Shown here piece after piece: positions 3,549 through 30,180 of a stretch of DNA of 37,272 nucleotides; the stretch's first letter is position 1, and each line of letters begins with the position of its first letter. Under the pieces are notes generated by a model. The model was not told the DNA's origin. It did not search any database and was given only the letters and a program-made list of their open reading frames with translations. A program made the translations under genes and the position numbers. The DNA is from Gemmatimonadota bacterium (lineage in GTDB: Bacteria > Gemmatimonadota > Gemmatimonadetes > Longimicrobiales > Gaopeijiaceae), in contig SLFU01000235.1 of assembly GCA_007124095.1 (NCBI GenBank), forward strand, positions 1 through 37,272, given 5' to 3'.

Positions 3549-3634
3549 AAGGCTGTTGAAGTCGGGTTCAGCGACTCCTCGGCCTTCGGCGACTCTGCGG
3601 CCGAGCCCCTACCTCGCACGCCGGAATCCAGTAC

Positions 3635-3677
3635 CTACATTTTCGTAGGCCTTGCCCCCGAAGGCACCTTCCGGAAG
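3635..3677 (+). promoter_or_regulatory. Paired activator site (UAS) of the 165-aa gene
   Basis: The distal box CTACATTTTCGTAG (3635-3648) is the exact reverse complement of the distal box upstream of amtB (28053-28066), so it has the same orientation relative to its promoter. A degenerate proximal box, GCACCTTCCGGAAG (3664-3677), has its centre 29 bp further on. It keeps the positions shared by the other two proximal boxes: ACC, GG and AG at positions 3-5, 10-11 and 13-14. The pair sits about 115 and 145 bp upstream of the predicted start point, a normal place for an enhancer of a sigma-54 promoter. That the NifA-like protein binds here is inference. Confidence 0.7.
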
Positions 3678-3758
3678 GGCGGCCACTCGATGGCGCTTCC
3701 GTTGCCAGGGTCCCTTATCCTAATGCCCATTAATGAGATACAAGGTCGGGATCAGGTC

Positions 3759-3774
3759 TGGCACGGGGCTCGCA
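3759..3774 (+). promoter_or_regulatory. Sigma-54 promoter of the 165-aa gene
   Basis: TGGCACGGGGCTCGCA matches the sigma-54 consensus TGGCACG-N4-TTGC with one change in the -12 block, and has the obligatory 10 bases between GG (-24) and GC (-12). Transcription should start near 3785, giving a leader of about 150 bases before the start codon at 3937. Confidence 0.75.
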
Positions 3775-3832
3775 ACAGGTTCGAGTGACACCGATGTTGT
3801 CGAAGAATCGGTGGAGTAGGGAAATCGAAATT

Positions 3833-3901
3833 CATGAGGGGCCGTCGTCCGGAAGAGACTCAGTCCTTCGCGACTCCGAACCGGGAACGTCGGCCCCCAT
3901 G
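3833..3901 (+). promoter_or_regulatory. Long stem-loop in the leader of the 165-aa gene
   Basis: CATGAGGGGCCG (3833-3844) pairs with CGGCCCCCATG (3891-3901) with a single bulged A. Inside, TCCGG and CCGGGA can extend the helix, and AGTC/GACT around a CUUCGC loop can cap it. The structure ends 25 bases before the Shine-Dalgarno GGGAGG (3927-3932). It does not look like a terminator of the gene ahead, because no T-run follows; a translational or RNA-stability role is possible but unproven. Confidence 0.5.
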
Positions 3902-3936
3902 AGAGCTCAAAAAAAATAGATAATACGGGAGGACAA

Positions 3937-4434
3937 ATGTTTACGAAGCCAAGCGTTCTCTTCATTCGGGAATCAGAGCCGCCGAGCACCGGGATCCTCG
4001 AAACCCTGAGGGGGAGCCCCGAGGGTGGGAGAGCCAACGATCCACTCAGCTTCCGTGCCAGGGCGAGAATGGAGTCGATGGGTCCCCTCTACCGGACGCT
4101 CCGGCACCGATTCGGGGAGGAAGTGACCCTGGAAGTGGTCGATTCGGCGAGCCCCTTGAGTGCGGTGATTTCGGTCCTGCGAGCCACGACTGGACACGGA
4201 CTCGAGCCGATCGAAGTCGCCCGGGCCCTTGCACGGATCCCGAGCTGTGGGATCATGCTCAACGGACGGCTGATATCCCAGGGGGAGTGGCCTTCGCCGT
4301 GGGAGATGGTCGTACGGCTTGAGGAACTCCTCGGGGCGGGAAGGACTCCATTCTCCGGCGGGCGGGTGATGGGTCCACGCGCTCCGTCACAGGGACTTCA
4401 CAGTCCGGGATCGGCCTCCGCCGTGCAGGTGTAG
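3937..4434 (+). CDS. Unrecognised 165-aa protein, putative sigma-54-controlled gene
   Basis: I do not recognise the family. The protein has no signal peptide or membrane segment. Secondary structure by eye is strand 5-10, helix about 44-59, strand 62-69, helices 73-101, strand 104-114, helix 120-132, then a Pro/Gly/Ser-rich tail. The segment around Cys104, IPSCGIMLNGRLISQGEWPS, followed by a helix, resembles the end of a thioredoxin-like fold (Pro, strand, NG turn, strand, GxxPS, helix). However, there is no CxxC and Cys104 is the only cysteine, so it would not be a classical redox protein. GGGAGG lies four bases before the ATG. The gene stands alone, facing the ABC transporter genes, behind a sigma-54-type promoter and an enhancer pair shared with amtB; its role is therefore probably linked to nitrogen status (inference). 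Confidence 0.72.
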   Translation: MFTKPSVLFIRESEPPSTGILETLRGSPEGGRANDPLSFRARARMESMGPLYRTLRHRFGEEVTLEVVDSASPLSAVISVLRATTGHGLEPIEVARALARIPSCGIMLNGRLISQGEWPSPWEMVVRLEELLGAGRTPFSGGRVMGPRAPSQGLHSPGSASAVQV

Positions 4435-22220: not shown

Positions 22221-24416
<2,196 letters not shown>

Positions 24417-24460
24417 CGGATGCTCCTCGAACGAAATAATTGGGGAAGGACGTAAGTCGA

Positions 24461-24490
24461 ACTATAGCGGGTCGTGAGGAGTTCTTTCAA
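24461..24490 (-). promoter_or_regulatory. Sigma-70-type promoter of the GSIII gene
   Basis: Read on the minus strand, TTGAAA (24490-24485) and TATAGT (24466-24461) are 18 bases apart, close to the -35/-10 consensus. The start point would lie about 35-40 bases before the ATG at 24416. No paired CTAC/GTAG site or sigma-54 motif is seen here, so GSIII is probably not part of the NifA-like regulon. Confidence 0.6.
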
Positions 24491-24549
24491 CGGGCCGTGC
24501 ACCGATGGGACGCATGGTAGGGTGCTGGCCCCGGGCGATGGAGTGAGAA

Positions 24550-24642
24550 GGGGTCAGCCACCACGGCCTGTCCCTCTCATGCACCCGCAACGTCGCGAGG
24601 CATGAGAGGGACAGGTGCGGTGCTCCAGAAGTGGCTCACCCC
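24550..24642. repeat. Nested palindromic element between glnA and glnN
   Basis: An inner perfect 16-base inverted repeat, CCTGTCCCTCTCATGC (24567-24582) with its complement at 24600-24615, surrounds a 17-base spacer. An outer 12-base pair, GGGGTCAGCCAC (24550-24561) with GTGGCTCACCCC (24631-24642), has one mismatch. On the plus strand ATTTTTGT follows. This resembles a REP/BIME- or MITE-like unit and may also end transcription; no transposase is present. Confidence 0.65.
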
Positions 24643-24662
24643 ATTTTTGTCTGAATGCTCTC

Positions 24663-26081
24663 TTAGCTGTCGTAGTAGAGGTAGAACTCGTGAGGATGGG
24701 GCCGGAGGCGCAGGGGCAGCACCTCGTTCTCCATCTTGTAGTCGATCCAGGTCTCGATCAGGTCATCAGTGAAAACGTCGCCCTTGGTGAGGAAGTCGTG
24801 ATCGTCGGCCAGCGCTTCGAGCGCTTCATTCAGGTCGGCCGGGGTCTTTTCGGTCTGGTCGAGCTCTTCCTTGCTCATTTCATAGATGTCCCGATCCAGC
24901 GGCTCGCCGGGATCGATCTCGTTCTCGATCCCATCCATGATCGCCATGAGCATGGCCGAGAACATGAGGTAGCCGTTGCAGGTCGGGTCCGGGCAGCGGA
25001 ATTCGAGTCGCTTCGCCTTGGGGCTTGCGGTGTACATCGGGATCCGCACGGAGGCCGAACGATTCCGCTTGGACATTGCCAGGTTTACCGGAGCTTCGTA
25101 CCCTGGGACCAGGCGCCGATAAGAGTTGGCCGTGGGTGCGGCGAAGGCCAAGACGGCCCGGGCGTGCTTGAGAAGTCCGCCGATGGCATGGAGTGCCATG
25201 TCGCTGAGCCCCGCGTAGCCGTCACCTGCAAAGAGAGGCTGGCCGTCCTTCCAGAGCGACATGTGGGTATGCATCCCGCTCCCGTTGTCCTCGAAGATCG
25301 GCTTTGGCATGAACGTGACCGTCTTCCCATGCGCCTTCGCCACGTTCCGGATGATGTACTTGTACCACATGAAGTGGTCCGCCATCTGGAGTAGCGGTTC
25401 GTACTGCAAATCAATCTCGGACTGGCCGCCGGTGCCCACCTCGTGGTGGTGCGCCTCCACCGTGATTCCCACCTTCTGCAGCATGAGGCTCATCTCGGTG
25501 CGGAGGTTGTGGTAGGTGTCGGAGGGGCTGACTGGAAAGTACCCGCCCTTGTAGCTGGGCTTGTAGCCCAGGTTCGGCTCTTCGAAGCGAGCCGTGTTCC
25601 AGGCGCCTTCCACGGAGTCGATCTCGTAGAAGCCCCGATTCTGAGTCTGCTCGTAACGGACCTGGTCGAAGATGAAGAACTCCGGCTCGGGACCGACGTA
25701 GCAGACATCGGCGATCCCGCTCTTCCTGAGATACTCGTCCGCCTTGCGGGCGACATGCCGGGGGTCACGCGTATAGTCCTCGCGTGACTCGGGATCCTTG
25801 ATGTTCGAGATCACGCTCACGGTAGGCGTGTCGAAGAAGGGATCCACCTGGACGGTGGCCGGGTCCGGGACCGCCACCATGTCCGAGACATTGATGGCCT
25901 GCCACCCTCGAACCGACGAACCGTCGAATCCGACGCCGTCCTCGAAGGTGCCCTCATCCCAGGTTTCGATCGGGAAGGTGCAGTGCTGCCATGTCCCGAG
26001 GAGGTCGGTGAACTTGAGGTCCACCATCTTCGCATCGTGCTCCTTCGCATACTTGAAAAACTCATCCGGTGTCATGGTCAT
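24663..26081 (-). CDS. glnA: Type I glutamine synthetase
   Basis: A 472-aa dodecameric GSI. It has [25 protein letters not shown] in the beta-grasp domain, [51 protein letters not shown] and the C-terminal [13 protein letters not shown]. Tyr400 in [10 protein letters not shown] sits where GSI-beta enzymes are adenylylated (NLYDLP), so adenylylation by a GlnE-type enzyme is possible; none is in the window. The start is either ATG at 26081 or six bases later; the ribosome-binding site is weak. It follows the PII gene by 57 bases and is probably read from the amtB promoter. Confidence 0.95.
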
Positions 26082-26138: not shown

Positions 26139-26480
26139 TCAACCGACGGCCGGGGCGCCGGATTCCCCGGTCCGGATCCGGTAGCACTCGGCCAGCTCGA
26201 CGACGAAGATCACCCCGTCCCCAAAGTTGCCGGTACGAGCGCCCTCGGTGATCGCCTCCCGGGTGCGCACCAGGTACTCGTCGTTCACGGCGATCTCCAA
26301 GCGAACCTTCTTGAGGAGCTGTACCTCGAACTCCGCTCCTCGGTAAGTCTCGGTAAAGCCCTTCTGCTGGCCGCAGCCAAGGGCATTGCTCACTGACATC
26401 CGGGTCACTCCCACATCGGTGAGGGCCTGTTTCACATGGTGAAGCCGCTCGGGCTGGATGTACGCGATCACTAGTTTCAT
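26139..26480 (-). CDS. glnK: PII nitrogen-regulatory protein (GlnK/GlnB) with Phe at position 51
   Basis: A 113-aa PII signal protein. PII trimers sense ATP/ADP and 2-oxoglutarate, and in GlnK bind AmtB. MKLVIAYIQPERL, the T-loop GCGQQKGFTETYRGAEF, Gln39, Lys58 and the C-terminal YRIRTGE are conserved. The T-loop residue that is uridylylated (Tyr51, in GAEY) is Phe51 here, and Arg38 is Gln38. Tyr46 is kept. The protein should therefore still bind effectors but cannot be modified at residue 51. It lies directly downstream of amtB (42 bases), the usual glnK position. GGGAG six bases before the ATG supports the start. Confidence 0.93.
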   Translation of the reverse strand: MKLVIAYIQPERLHHVKQALTDVGVTRMSVSNALGCGQQKGFTETYRGAEFEVQLLKKVRLEIAVNDEYLVRTREAITEGARTGNFGDGVIFVVELAECYRIRTGESGAPAVG

Positions 26481-26522: not shown

Positions 26523-27833
26523 TCAGCGAGCGGTGAAGATCTGGAAATCCGCGTAGGCTTCCATGTTGTGCTCGGAGAGGTCGAGGCCCCTGCGTTCGTC
26601 ATCGGCGGAAACCCTCAGTCCGATCGTCTTCTTGATCAGCCAGAAGAGGATGAAGGCGGAGCCGAAGGCGACGGCCCCGTAGCTCAGCACCCCAATCAAC
26701 TGGGTCACCAAGCTGAACTCCGCGGCGAAGAGGCCGACGGCAAGAGTTCCCCATACGCCGCAGGTAAGGTGCACCGAGATAGCGCCGACCGGGTCGTCGA
26801 GTTTCCATCGGTCGAGCATCATGACGGAGAAGACCACGATCACTCCCGCGATCAGCCCGATGATCACCGAGGAAAGGACACTGACTACGTCCGCGCCCGC
26901 TGTGATCCCTACGAGACCGGCAAGTGCTCCGTTGAGGATCATTGAGGCGTCCGGGTGCTTATGCACGGTCCAGGTCGTGGCGAGCGCACCGGTGATGCCG
27001 GCTGCCGCTGCGATTGCCGTGGTGACGAAGACGAAGGAGATCTCACCGGGATCGGCGCTCAACACGGATCCCCCGTTGAACCCGAACCACCCGAACCAGA
27101 GAAGGAACATCCCGAACACTGCGAAGGGGAGGTTGTGACCCAGGATCGGCTGGATCCGGCCGTTCACGTATTTTCCGAGCCGGGGTCCGAGCAGGATGAC
27201 TCCCGCAAGGGCCGCCCATCCTCCCACGGAGTGGACGATGGTGGAGCCCGCGAAGTCGTAGAATCCCGCCTGGTCCAACCAGCCACCTCCCCACTGCCAC
27301 GAACCGAGGGCGGGGTAGACGAAGGCAACGTACACTGCCGAGAAGATGAGGAAGGCTTCGAGCTTGATTCGTTCGGCGACCGCGCCGGACACGATGGTGG
27401 CGGCCGTTGCGGCGAACATTGCCTGGAAGATGAAGTCGGCCCAGTAGGTGAAGCCCGGATCGTACGCCGCGGTGAGTCCCTCGGCGTCGGTGCCCACACC
27501 GAACCCTGCAAAGCCGAAGAGGCCCCCGAGACCGAACTCCCCCGGGTACATCAAATTGAATCCCACGATCGCGTAGGTCAGAATCCCGATCGCGATGATG
27601 CTCATGTTTTTGACGAGAATATTGACGGTGTTCTTCGCCTGGGTGAGCCCCGCCTCCAGGGCGGTAAACCCGAGATGCATGACGAAGACCAGGAAGGTCG
27701 CAACCAGGAGCCACAGGTTGTTAACGGTAAAGAGTACGTCAGCGGCAGTGGCTTCCTGGGCTGCTGCGAGAGAAGGAGTTCCTACCAGAAATAGGAGCGA
27801 AAATGCTGGAAGAATTGTTCGCAAGGGCCGCAT
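26523..27833 (-). CDS. amtB: Ammonium transporter
   Basis: A 436-aa Amt-family ammonium channel of the inner membrane, with a cleavable-looking signal peptide (MRPLRTILPAFSLLFLVGTPSLAAAQ) followed by about 11 helices. The pore's twin histidines fit His201 (STIVHSVGGW) and His355 (VHLTCGVWG); GFNLMYPG and ALEAGLTQAKNTVNIL are family motifs. The C-terminal tail GLDLSEHNMEAY is the region that communicates with PII. The ATG at 27833 has GGAGG upstream and gives a leader of about 60 bases from the predicted sigma-54 promoter; an in-frame ATG at 27875 would leave almost no leader. It is first in the likely amtB-PII-glnA operon. Confidence 0.94.
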   Translation of the reverse strand: MRPLRTILPAFSLLFLVGTPSLAAAQEATAADVLFTVNNLWLLVATFLVFVMHLGFTALEAGLTQAKNTVNILVKNMSIIAIGILTYAIVGFNLMYPGEFGLGGLFGFAGFGVGTDAEGLTAAYDPGFTYWADFIFQAMFAATAATIVSGAVAERIKLEAFLIFSAVYVAFVYPALGSWQWGGGWLDQAGFYDFAGSTIVHSVGGWAALAGVILLGPRLGKYVNGRIQPILGHNLPFAVFGMFLLWFGWFGFNGGSVLSADPGEISFVFVTTAIAAAAGITGALATTWTVHKHPDASMILNGALAGLVGITAGADVVSVLSSVIIGLIAGVIVVFSVMMLDRWKLDDPVGAISVHLTCGVWGTLAVGLFAAEFSLVTQLIGVLSYGAVAFGSAFILFWLIKKTIGLRVSADDERRGLDLSEHNMEAYADFQIFTAR

Positions 27834-27904
27834 GAGTAGTTTTCCTCCGAAGTCGGTCCATTGTGGACGGCACATCGCTCATTCGCGACGATACCGGAGG
27901 AGTT

Positions 27905-27920
27905 GGCAAGGCCCATGCCA
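27905..27920 (-). promoter_or_regulatory. Sigma-54 promoter of amtB
   Basis: Read on the minus strand, TGGCATGGGCCTTGCC matches TGGCAYG-N4-TTGC with exactly ten bases between GG and GC. Transcription should start near 27895. Together with the paired enhancer-like boxes upstream, it makes a complete sigma-54 module. Confidence 0.85.
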
Positions 27921-28023
27921 TCCGGACGATTCCAGGGCGGGGCACCCGGGGATTGCCCGTATGAAGCCAAAAAGAAGGGGTCTGAGGGGGGGAAAGAGAT
28001 CGCCTACCCGAGGGGGAAGGGGG

Positions 28024-28066
28024 CTACCAAATGGTAGGACGCGCGGCGGAGGCTACGAAAATGTAG
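28024..28066 (-). promoter_or_regulatory. Paired activator site (UAS) of amtB
   Basis: The proximal box CTACCAAATGGTAG (28024-28037) has perfect CTACCA/TGGTAG arms. The distal box is CTACGAAAATGTAG (28053-28066). Their centres are 29 bp apart, so both should face the same side of the helix. They lie about 135 and 165 bp upstream of the predicted amtB start point and just after the activator gene's stop. Neither the NtrC (TGCACC-N5-GGTGCA) nor the NifA (TGT-N10-ACA) consensus fits. Confidence 0.75.
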
Positions 28067-28081
28067 GCCCCTCGGAGATCC

Positions 28082-29617
28082 TCAATCCAACCCGTACTTC
28101 TTCACCCGAAGGCCCATCACTCGCTCGGTGATCCCGAGCTCCCGGGCCGCCGCGGCCCGGTTGCCCCGATGGGCCTTGAGGGCGTCGATGAGGAGTTCCC
28201 TCTCCAATGCCTCGAGCTGGGCGTTGAGCGGCCCGGACGGGGTGTCCTCGGGCCGGGCCATCTGGAGGCTGGGTGGGAGGAGGCGGGCGTGGAGCACGTC
28301 CCCGTCCGCCACCAGCACCGCCCGTTCGATCGCGTTCTCCAGCTCCCGAACGTTGCCTGGCCAGTGGTACGACATCAGGAGGTCGATGGCGGGCGTCGAA
28401 AGGCGCACTATGGAGCGATCGTGGCGTTCGTTGTACTTCTCGATGAAGTGATCCGCCAGCAAGGTGATGTCGGTGCGGCGGTCCCGCAGCGGAGGTACGT
28501 GGATCGGGAATACATTCAGCCGGTAGTAAAGATCGGTTCGAAACCGGCCTTCCTCCATATCCTTTTCGAGGGGTCGGTTCGTCGCCGCTACTACGCGGAC
28601 GTCAGTGGGGAGGGTCTCGGTTCCACCCACCCTCTCGAACTCTCGTTCCTGGAGGATTCGGAGGAGCCTGACCTGCACGGATGGGCTCAGTTCTCCGATC
28701 TCATCCAGGAAGATCGTCCCCCCGGCAGCCCGCTCGAAGCGGCCTGGGCGCTGCTGTACGGCCCCCGTGAAGGCTCCCTTTTCGTGGCCGAAGAGCTCGC
28801 TTTCGATGAGACCTTCCGGCAGCGCGGCGCAGTTCACCCGCACGAAGGGGCCCTCCGATCGTGGGCTTGCATAATGGACGGCCTGGGCGATGAGCTCCTT
28901 TCCGGTTCCGCTTTCTCCCCGAATGAGCACGGTCGCATCACTTCCCGCCACCTGGCCGATCATCTCGTATACGGGCGCCATCTCCCGTGAGCGTCCGATG
29001 ATGTTGGCGGGGCGGTAGCGGTCGGCCAGCTCCCGCTGGAGGCGCTGGTTCTCGGCGAGGAGCACCTTCTCCTCCTCGGAGAACTGGCGCAGGCGAACTG
29101 CGTGGGCGATCAGCGAGGAGAGGATCGAGAGGATTCGGATGTCCTCGTCGAAGGAGTTTTCCTTACCGTAGGATCGCTCTGCGCTCAAGGCCCCGATCGT
29201 CTCGCTTCCGGACCGGACCGGGACGCAGACGAAGGCCATCTCGGGGGGGCGGTCGCCCTGCGGCTGAATCCGGTTCAGGAAGGCCGGCTCCATGGCAATC
29301 GACGGGACCACCACTGGTGCGCCGGTCTCTACGACTCGCCCGGTTATCCCCTCCCCAAGCCGGTAGCGGGCCCTCTCCCGTTCGTCCTCGGTGAGTCCAA
29401 TCGCTTCGTGCAGGAGGATCTCGGAGGTCCTCCGGTTCAGAACCGTGAGGGTCGCCCGCGCCACTTCCATGTGATGGAAGAGGGCTTCCAGGATGGGCTT
29501 CACCGCCTTCCGGACATCCGTGGCCTCATCTAGCAGCCTGCTGGCTTCGTGAAGAAGCGCCAGCGGTCCGGACTGTTCGTTTGAACTGCCCACATTCACC
29601 TCGCAGTTGGTCGGCAT
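28082..29617 (-). CDS. NifA-like sigma-54-dependent transcriptional activator
   Basis: A 511-aa enhancer-binding protein. Residues about 20-175 form a GAF sensor domain; [19 protein letters not shown] and AFLNR read very much like NifA/VnfA-type GAF domains. The central AAA+ domain has Walker A GESGTGKE (Lys240) and the sigma-54 contact loop GAFTGA (281-286). The C-terminus is a Fis-type helix-turn-helix ([24 protein letters not shown]). There is no Cys-rich linker of the oxygen-sensing NifA kind, and no receiver domain. It lies directly upstream of amtB on the same strand, so its job is probably ammonium-starvation control rather than nitrogen fixation; no nif gene is in the window. The start at 29617 is the longest plausible; an internal GTG near residue 7 is possible. 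Confidence 0.9.
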
Positions 29618-30001
29618 GCACTTCGAAACCTCCCACCCCTTCCCCGGATCGCGAGTCGCCGGGACAAGCCGGGGAAGACCGTGCGATCGGTTTCCGCCCG
29701 GCCCGAAAGCTCGGCGTCGCTCACTACCCAGGCAATGCTCATGTCGGACCCTTCGAGCTCGGAGCCAAAACGAGCCCCGAGGTACTCTGCGCTGACCGCC
29801 TCCCCAATGGTGTCACCGGTGGTTTAGGTACCCAGGTGTTCGGCGATCAGACCGGAAGAGGAAGGGGAGACCACCCGCAGTCAGCCTGCTCCCTACTGCG
29901 TTTCATGTCGCCCGTGCTCCTAGAGGTGATACTTCATTGGGAGTGGGGCCTTCCCCAAGATTCCGGCGACCACCCTGTGGTGGGGGTCAAGCTTTTGAGC
30001 T

Positions 30002-30017
30002 TGCGACTTTCGTGCCA
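30002..30017 (-). promoter_or_regulatory. Sigma-54 promoter upstream of the NifA-like gene
   Basis: Read on the minus strand, TGGCACGAAAGTCGCA matches the sigma-54 consensus with one change in the -12 block and the correct ten bases between GG and GC. Transcription would start near 29991, about 370 bases before the activator's start codon. It could drive the activator (autoregulation) or a small RNA in the leader. Confidence 0.72.
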
Positions 30018-30097
30018 GGATTCAAGCATCGCCCCCGATGCGTTGTATCAGAAGGCCTTTCCCGGCCCTCGCACCACCGCGAACCAAGCAAGCGGTC

Positions 30098-30140
30098 CTA
30101 CCCCGAGGTGGGATCACGCGACCGACATACTGGAATGTAG
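30098..30140 (-). promoter_or_regulatory. Paired activator site (UAS) upstream of the NifA-like gene
   Basis: CTACCCCGAGGTGG (30098-30111, proximal) and ATACTGGAATGTAG (30127-30140, distal) have centres 29 bp apart, as at amtB, and in the same order and orientation relative to their promoter. The proximal box keeps CTACC and GGT; the distal one keeps TAC and AATGTAG. They are weaker copies than those at amtB. Confidence 0.6.
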
Positions 30141-30180
30141 CCAACCCACCCTTTGGTCGGACCCTTCGTCGGACGAACGG

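Follow-up and report, generated by a model that had tools for sequence, protein, structure and literature searches.

How is the gene for a previously unrecognised thioredoxin-like protein of 165 amino acids controlled, and what does this control suggest about the protein? The gene lies in a 37,272-nucleotide stretch of Gemmatimonadota DNA (contig C34 of the genome), here called the window; members of the genus are known to occur in the sediment of soda lakes. A preliminary description had proposed that a pair of activator boxes and a sigma-54 promoter, arranged as upstream of the ammonium transporter gene amtB, place the 165-aa protein in the nitrogen regulon of a NifA-like activator. The features upstream of the gene are:

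3634..3649, plus strand: activator box 1, CCTACATTTTCGTAGG, a perfect CTAC-N6-GTAG palindrome (CCTAC-N6-GTAGG), kept in the orthologue (L010/L085)
3663..3678, plus strand: activator box 2, weaker, GGCACCTTCCGGAAGG, starting 29 bp after box 1
3759..3774, plus strand: sigma-54 (-24/-12) promoter, TGGCACGGGGCTCGCA, 124 bp from the start of box 1
3786..3936, plus strand: untranslated leader, 150 nt
3937..4434, plus strand: 165-aa gene, a paralogue of the GCCG thioredoxin-fold family without the cysteine pair

Judged by its sequence, the segment 3634-3774 very probably serves as a sigma-54-dependent promoter preceded by two activator boxes. The element TGGCACGGGGCTCGCA was found at 3759-3774 as described and fits GG-N10-GC with a TGGCAC-N5-TTGCA-like sequence. 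Sigma-54 promoters need an upstream-bound activator, and the box pair is located 95-124 bp upstream of the promoter, helically phased and within the expected range of about 80-150 bp. Box 2 deviates from the consensus at 3 of the 8 specified bases. From the -12 element the transcript is predicted to start near 3785, and a ribosome-binding site, GGGAGGA, precedes the gene at 3927-3933. A second sigma-54-like site at 3691, TGGCGCTTCCGTTGCC, was rejected because of its poorer score and wrong distance (+56), and a search for a sigma-70-type promoter before the gene found none.

Comparison with the amtB box confirmed and slightly extended the 14-base identity claimed for 3635-3648, as 15 bases (3634-3648) equal the minus strand at 28067-28053. 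The weaker second box likewise has the spacing of the amtB pair. The claim of a shared box direction stood in part: both boxes point to their own promoter, but the box is a palindrome and its orientation therefore amounts only to the asymmetry of the N6 core. The nitrogen genes of the window are arranged as follows:

24663..26081, minus strand: glnA, type I glutamine synthetase
26139..26480, minus strand: glnK, P-II protein (PF00543)
26523..27875, minus strand: amtB, ammonium transporter (PF00909)
27905..27920, minus strand: sigma-54 promoter of amtB-glnK-glnA, TGGCATGGGCCTTGCC, 146 bp from the start of box 1
28023..28067, minus strand: amtB box pair, CCTACATTTTCGTAGC / CCTACCATTTGGTAGC, 29-bp spacing
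28082..29617, minus strand: NifA-like sigma-54 activator with GAF domain, AAA+ domain with GAFTGA, and Fis-type HTH
29641..29844, minus strand: decayed remnant of a TorF-type porin with an in-frame stop, intact at the same place in relatives
30002..30017, minus strand: sigma-54 promoter of the porin remnant and the NifA-like gene, TGGCACGAAAGTCGCA
30097..30141, minus strand: third box pair of the window, GCTACATTCCAGTATG / CCCACCTCGGGGTAGG, upstream of the NifA-like gene

Just downstream of the type I glnA lies the gene of a type III glutamine synthetase (22221-26081 for both, minus strand). The module before the NifA-like gene is additional to those described earlier. The porin remnant is recognisable by comparison with the porin of a second genome of the genus, G001 (tblastn E 1.4e-8), and the promoter at 30017 now leads to the regulator alone. 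In G001 the porin at this place is also decayed, and an intact copy with its own module is found elsewhere. The NifA-like protein has the hallmarks of a sigma-54 activator (PF00158, E 4.8e-73; HTH_8, E 4.8e-11; GAFTGA in the translation). Its best NCBIfam match is TIGR01817 with 520.3 bits, below the curated cut-off of 528.85, and the match stops before the C-terminal DNA-binding part of the profile. No nifH over cut-off was found in the genome, and the regulon is therefore best read as an assimilation regulon.

Could such modules arise by chance? Allowing up to 3 mismatches, the 14-mer box matched 4 times in the window, against 0.72 matches expected from dinucleotide shuffles. As a full module we counted any two boxes with a spacing of 29 bp and no more than 3 mismatches over the 16 specified bases, provided that a sigma-54 site scoring at least 11 followed at +115 to +150. 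By this definition the window holds 3 modules, while 60 Mb of Markov-simulated sequence held none on either strand. A genome-wide pattern search for the box pair, followed by sigma-54 promoter scoring, revealed five modules in the 2.8-Mb genome:

C34, about 3634, plus strand: 165-aa gene, promoter at +124
C34, about 28067, minus strand: amtB, promoter at +146
C34, about 30141, minus strand: NifA-like gene, promoter at +123
C68, 6235, minus strand: SusC/RagA receptor (TIGR04056), promoter at +124
C155, 13529, plus strand: operon of ECF sigma factor, FecR-like gene and SusC, promoter at +123

On C68 the SusC/RagA receptor gene (L079, 2932-6235, minus strand) stands directly behind the box pair and sigma-54 promoter. 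On C155 (L078, 9530-15483) the same arrangement precedes the genes for an ECF sigma factor, a FecR-like protein and a SusC receptor, and this locus possibly represents a cascade from sigma-54 to an ECF sigma factor under nitrogen control. Three other box pairs in the genome, each with 3 mismatches, lacked a promoter of similar quality; as a control, the reversed pattern yielded 3 pairs, none at 2 mismatches or fewer. Isolated perfect boxes at other places in the genome were rejected for want of a second box and a good promoter, except for one on C142, which has a sigma-54-like site at +105 and may be a candidate.

We then surveyed 121 genomes of the family for box pairs and 154 genomes of the order for the regulator. 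Close orthologues of the NifA-like protein (78-89% identity) were present in 21 genomes from 6 genera, its own included, where they adjoin amtB-glnK and in many cases glnA as well. In each of the 21, amtB is preceded, downstream of the regulator, by a box pair and a sigma-54 promoter, with a box spacing of 29 bp (28 bp in genus g12). Most family genomes without a close orthologue have no box pair; in G033 a box pair and sigma-54 promoter precede amtB, though no close orthologue was found there. In total, 37 modules were collected across the family, all with CTAC-N6-GTAG boxes. Box 1 lies 121-124, 131-135 or 145-146 bp from its promoter and never at another distance; no probability is put on these classes because the genomes are related and not independent. 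Classes about 11 bp apart, one helical turn, are as expected if the activators have to face the polymerase. A second module stands before a TorF-type porin gene (TIGR02001) upstream of the regulator in no fewer than four further genomes (G030, G032, G004 and G142), and the order module-porin-regulator is repeated in G099 on a short contig. In G136 a distant NifA-like gene (51%) and a different amtB (34%) flank a perfect CCTAC-N6-GTAGG box with a sigma-54-like site (L127, around 4837, minus strand).

The 165-aa protein itself matched no family in Pfam and NCBIfam, and a PDB sequence search gave chance matches only. Homologue searches recovered one orthologue, in G001, and about 30 more distant relatives; a contig scan of other genomes with the protein added no relative. 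The orthologue is 57% identical and syntenic: the ABC-transporter genes beside it show 79% and 91% identity. Loss of the boxes and promoter in homologues had been named beforehand as the outcome that would speak against nitrogen control. The sole true orthologue keeps both: box 1 (CCTACAATTTCGTAGG), at +29 a second box that is again weak (CGCACCTGCGGGAAGG), and at +122 the promoter (TGGCACGGGACTCGCA), while the remaining upstream DNA has diverged. With a single orthologue in the searched genomes, this conservation is that of two sequences from one genus. Together with the amtB modules in 21/21 genomes, it supports the proposed membership of the 165-aa protein in the nitrogen regulon of the NifA-like activator. 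Within the family circuit, this predicted membership is unique to the genus. The two genes differ by dN 0.38 and dS 1.19 (dN/dS about 0.32), which indicates that the 165-aa protein is under purifying selection. The proteins share the identity blocks RARARMES.GPLYRT.R.RFG and GEWPSPWE.VVR.EEL.

Where does this protein come from? It aligns over the whole domain with a paralogue in its own genome (44%, E 1.9e-25). In this genome and in G001, one such paralogue each (L022, L023) has the cysteines, within the family-wide SSSGCCGRL motif. The vicinal cysteines of SGCCGR are replaced by IL in the 165-aa protein and by LL in its orthologue, and among the relatives examined the Cys-Cys pair is missing only in these two. 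The VVDPRN motif has become VVDSAS and VVDSSS, respectively. In the tree the two proteins form a fully supported pair on a long branch (1.67), and their attachment near the cysteine-bearing proteins of the genus is weakly supported. The duplication probably occurred in this genus. No module was found upstream of the more distant cysteine-bearing relatives, and thus nitrogen control appears confined to the branch of the 165-aa gene. These relatives belong to an undescribed thioredoxin-like SSSGCCGRLEGDF family without a Pfam or NCBIfam model (L027, L033, L034, L036, L042 and others), which also occurs in Melghirimyces (Bacillota, L167).

The genes of cysteine-bearing relatives often lie in a cluster with cstA, cory-CC-star (NF041419) and a GET3/ArsA-type ATPase gene (E 1.7e-62, 1.9e-38 and 1.7e-79, respectively). 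In the genome studied here, the ArsA-like ATPase is encoded on contig C131 and CstA on C31. In the part of their article considered here, Castillo and Saier (2010, PMC2963123) proposed that ArsA homologues energise CstA together with CstX of about 90 aa, and mentioned possible peptide uptake by CstA. The parent family thus resembles these CstA-CstX-ArsA clusters in its position between cstA, an approximately 90-aa gene and an approximately 340-aa ArsA-like gene, and the approximately 90-aa cory-CC-star gene is probably their CstX. It differs in having a thioredoxin-like component, which that part of the article does not describe, and the 165-aa copy has left the cluster. Both structure models show a thioredoxin-like beta-alpha-beta-alpha-beta-beta-alpha order, the model of the 165-aa protein being modest (mean pLDDT 65.6). 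Foldseek returned thioredoxins and ArsD with probabilities up to 0.99, but with weak E values of 0.02-0.1, the best being 0.02-0.03, and rmsd of 5-8 A. The ArsD / VcpD profile (NF047871) did not match the 165-aa protein and matched the relatives at E 0.03-0.09, far below the cut-off. Likeness to ArsD / VcpD lies in the predicted fold and, for the parent family, in the CC pair and the genetic link to an ArsA-like ATPase; the 165-aa protein, in contrast, has neither the Cys pair nor an ArsA neighbour.

Several other readings have to be weighed. The boxes are short, and their likeness might reflect chance or a recent local duplication within the window; the empty simulated sequence and the modules with different flanks on other contigs and in other genera already refute this, and we give it practically no weight. 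A better case can be made that the promoter is real but its boxes serve a different sigma-54 activator such as an NtrC-type response regulator, with the NifA-like gene merely a target. The genome holds about ten further full-length sigma-54 activation domains, and the box is unlike the classical NifA site TGT-N10-ACA. Yet the boxes adjoin the NifA-like gene wherever a close orthologue occurs (21/21 genomes) and are absent from most family genomes without one. Furthermore, the HTH is nearly invariant among the close orthologues, and even the distant NifA-like gene of G136 is accompanied by a perfect box before amtB. We therefore regard another activator as improbable. With about ten candidates in the genome, the boxes are assigned to the NifA-like protein by gene linkage.

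As to the product of the promoter, the 150-nt leader with its strong-looking GC stem and the missing family match of the protein could suggest that a small RNA or leader (3786-3936) is the real product and the 165-aa frame a passenger. A riboswitch or small RNA was rejected, since the leader has no Rfam match, a hairpin potential not above shuffles (z -1.17), and neither conservation nor equal length in G001; purifying selection on the protein speaks against this reading as well, which we consider highly improbable. That the gene is a decaying duplicate, a pseudogene in the making with its promoter merely retained, deserves more attention: the invariant Cys-Cys and PRN motifs are lost, the branch is long, copies are few and dN/dS is 0.32, compared with 0.06 for the regulator. 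Nevertheless, both species have an intact reading frame although dS has reached about 1.2, clear identity blocks persist between the proteins, and the promoter is kept too. Decay is thus unlikely.

The preferred explanation, which we hold to be likely as a whole, joins a sigma-54 promoter, a NifA-like activator acting on paired boxes, a nitrogen regulon and a recruited cysteine-less paralogue. Throughout the family the module accompanies amtB-glnK and the gene of the regulator itself, from which we infer that the NifA-like protein (28082-29617) recognises the boxes and acts as activator when nitrogen is limiting. Most likely the activator, together with the genetically linked P-II/AmtB pair, would respond to nitrogen shortage by binding as dimers to the paired CTAC-N6-GTAG boxes, on the same side of the helix, and would loop to the sigma-54 RNA polymerase. 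It would then switch on amtB-glnK-glnA, its own gene (positive feedback), the SusC locus, the ECF sigma-FecR-SusC locus and the 165-aa gene. The last of these arose by duplication of a vicinal-cysteine ArsD-like family member, with loss of Cys-Cys and gain of the predicted nitrogen promoter.

This scheme resembles the proteobacterial NtrC/NifA-sigma-54 control of glnK-amtB and glnA in its enhancer-like upstream sites, -24/-12 promoter and AAA+ activator with GAFTGA, in the activator gene lying within its own regulon, and in the control of ammonium uptake and glutamine synthetase. It differs in its operator of CTAC-N6-GTAG pairs at 28-29 bp, which is unlike the NtrC site as well as TGT-N10-ACA, in an activator with GAF-AAA-HTH architecture without a receiver domain in a genome without nifH, and in targets that include SusC receptors, an ECF sigma factor and, in relatives, a TorF porin. 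With NifA (TIGR01817) the activator shares the GAF and central AAA+ domains; it differs in profile score, operator (TGT-N10-ACA in NifA) and nitrogenase targets. Sequence comparison thus speaks for a real module and a real regulon that would work like classical NtrC/NifA-sigma-54 nitrogen regulons, with an activator other than NifA proper.

For the 165-aa protein, our best, speculative guess is that it serves the ArsA-like ATPase/CstA system as adaptor or competitor when nitrogen is limiting. It might bind the ArsA-like ATPase or a CstA complex with neither metal nor thiol chemistry involved, and such binding might adjust uptake to nitrogen status. In its sharpest form, which we consider doubtful, the protein would be a cysteine-less decoy of an ArsD-like chaperone, induced by nitrogen starvation and competing with the metal/thiol-binding paralogue for the ArsA-like ATPase. 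If true, a transport-energising ATPase would be tied to nitrogen status via the NifA-like regulon and a previously undescribed operator.

Nitrogen control in Gemmatimonadota appears to be little described, and a literature search for the phylum together with NifA and amtB yielded nothing relevant. Surprising features are the operator, a set of targets that includes SusC receptors, ECF sigma factor and porin, and the fact that a cysteine-less paralogue was recruited. The result provides a concrete operator, regulator and target list for cultured relatives that have them, and this list connects nitrogen limitation with outer-membrane import (SusC, TorF porin) and an ECF-sigma cascade. The regulation also gives a first hint at the function of an orphan protein that descends from the CstA/cory-CC-star/ArsA-like system, itself poorly understood.
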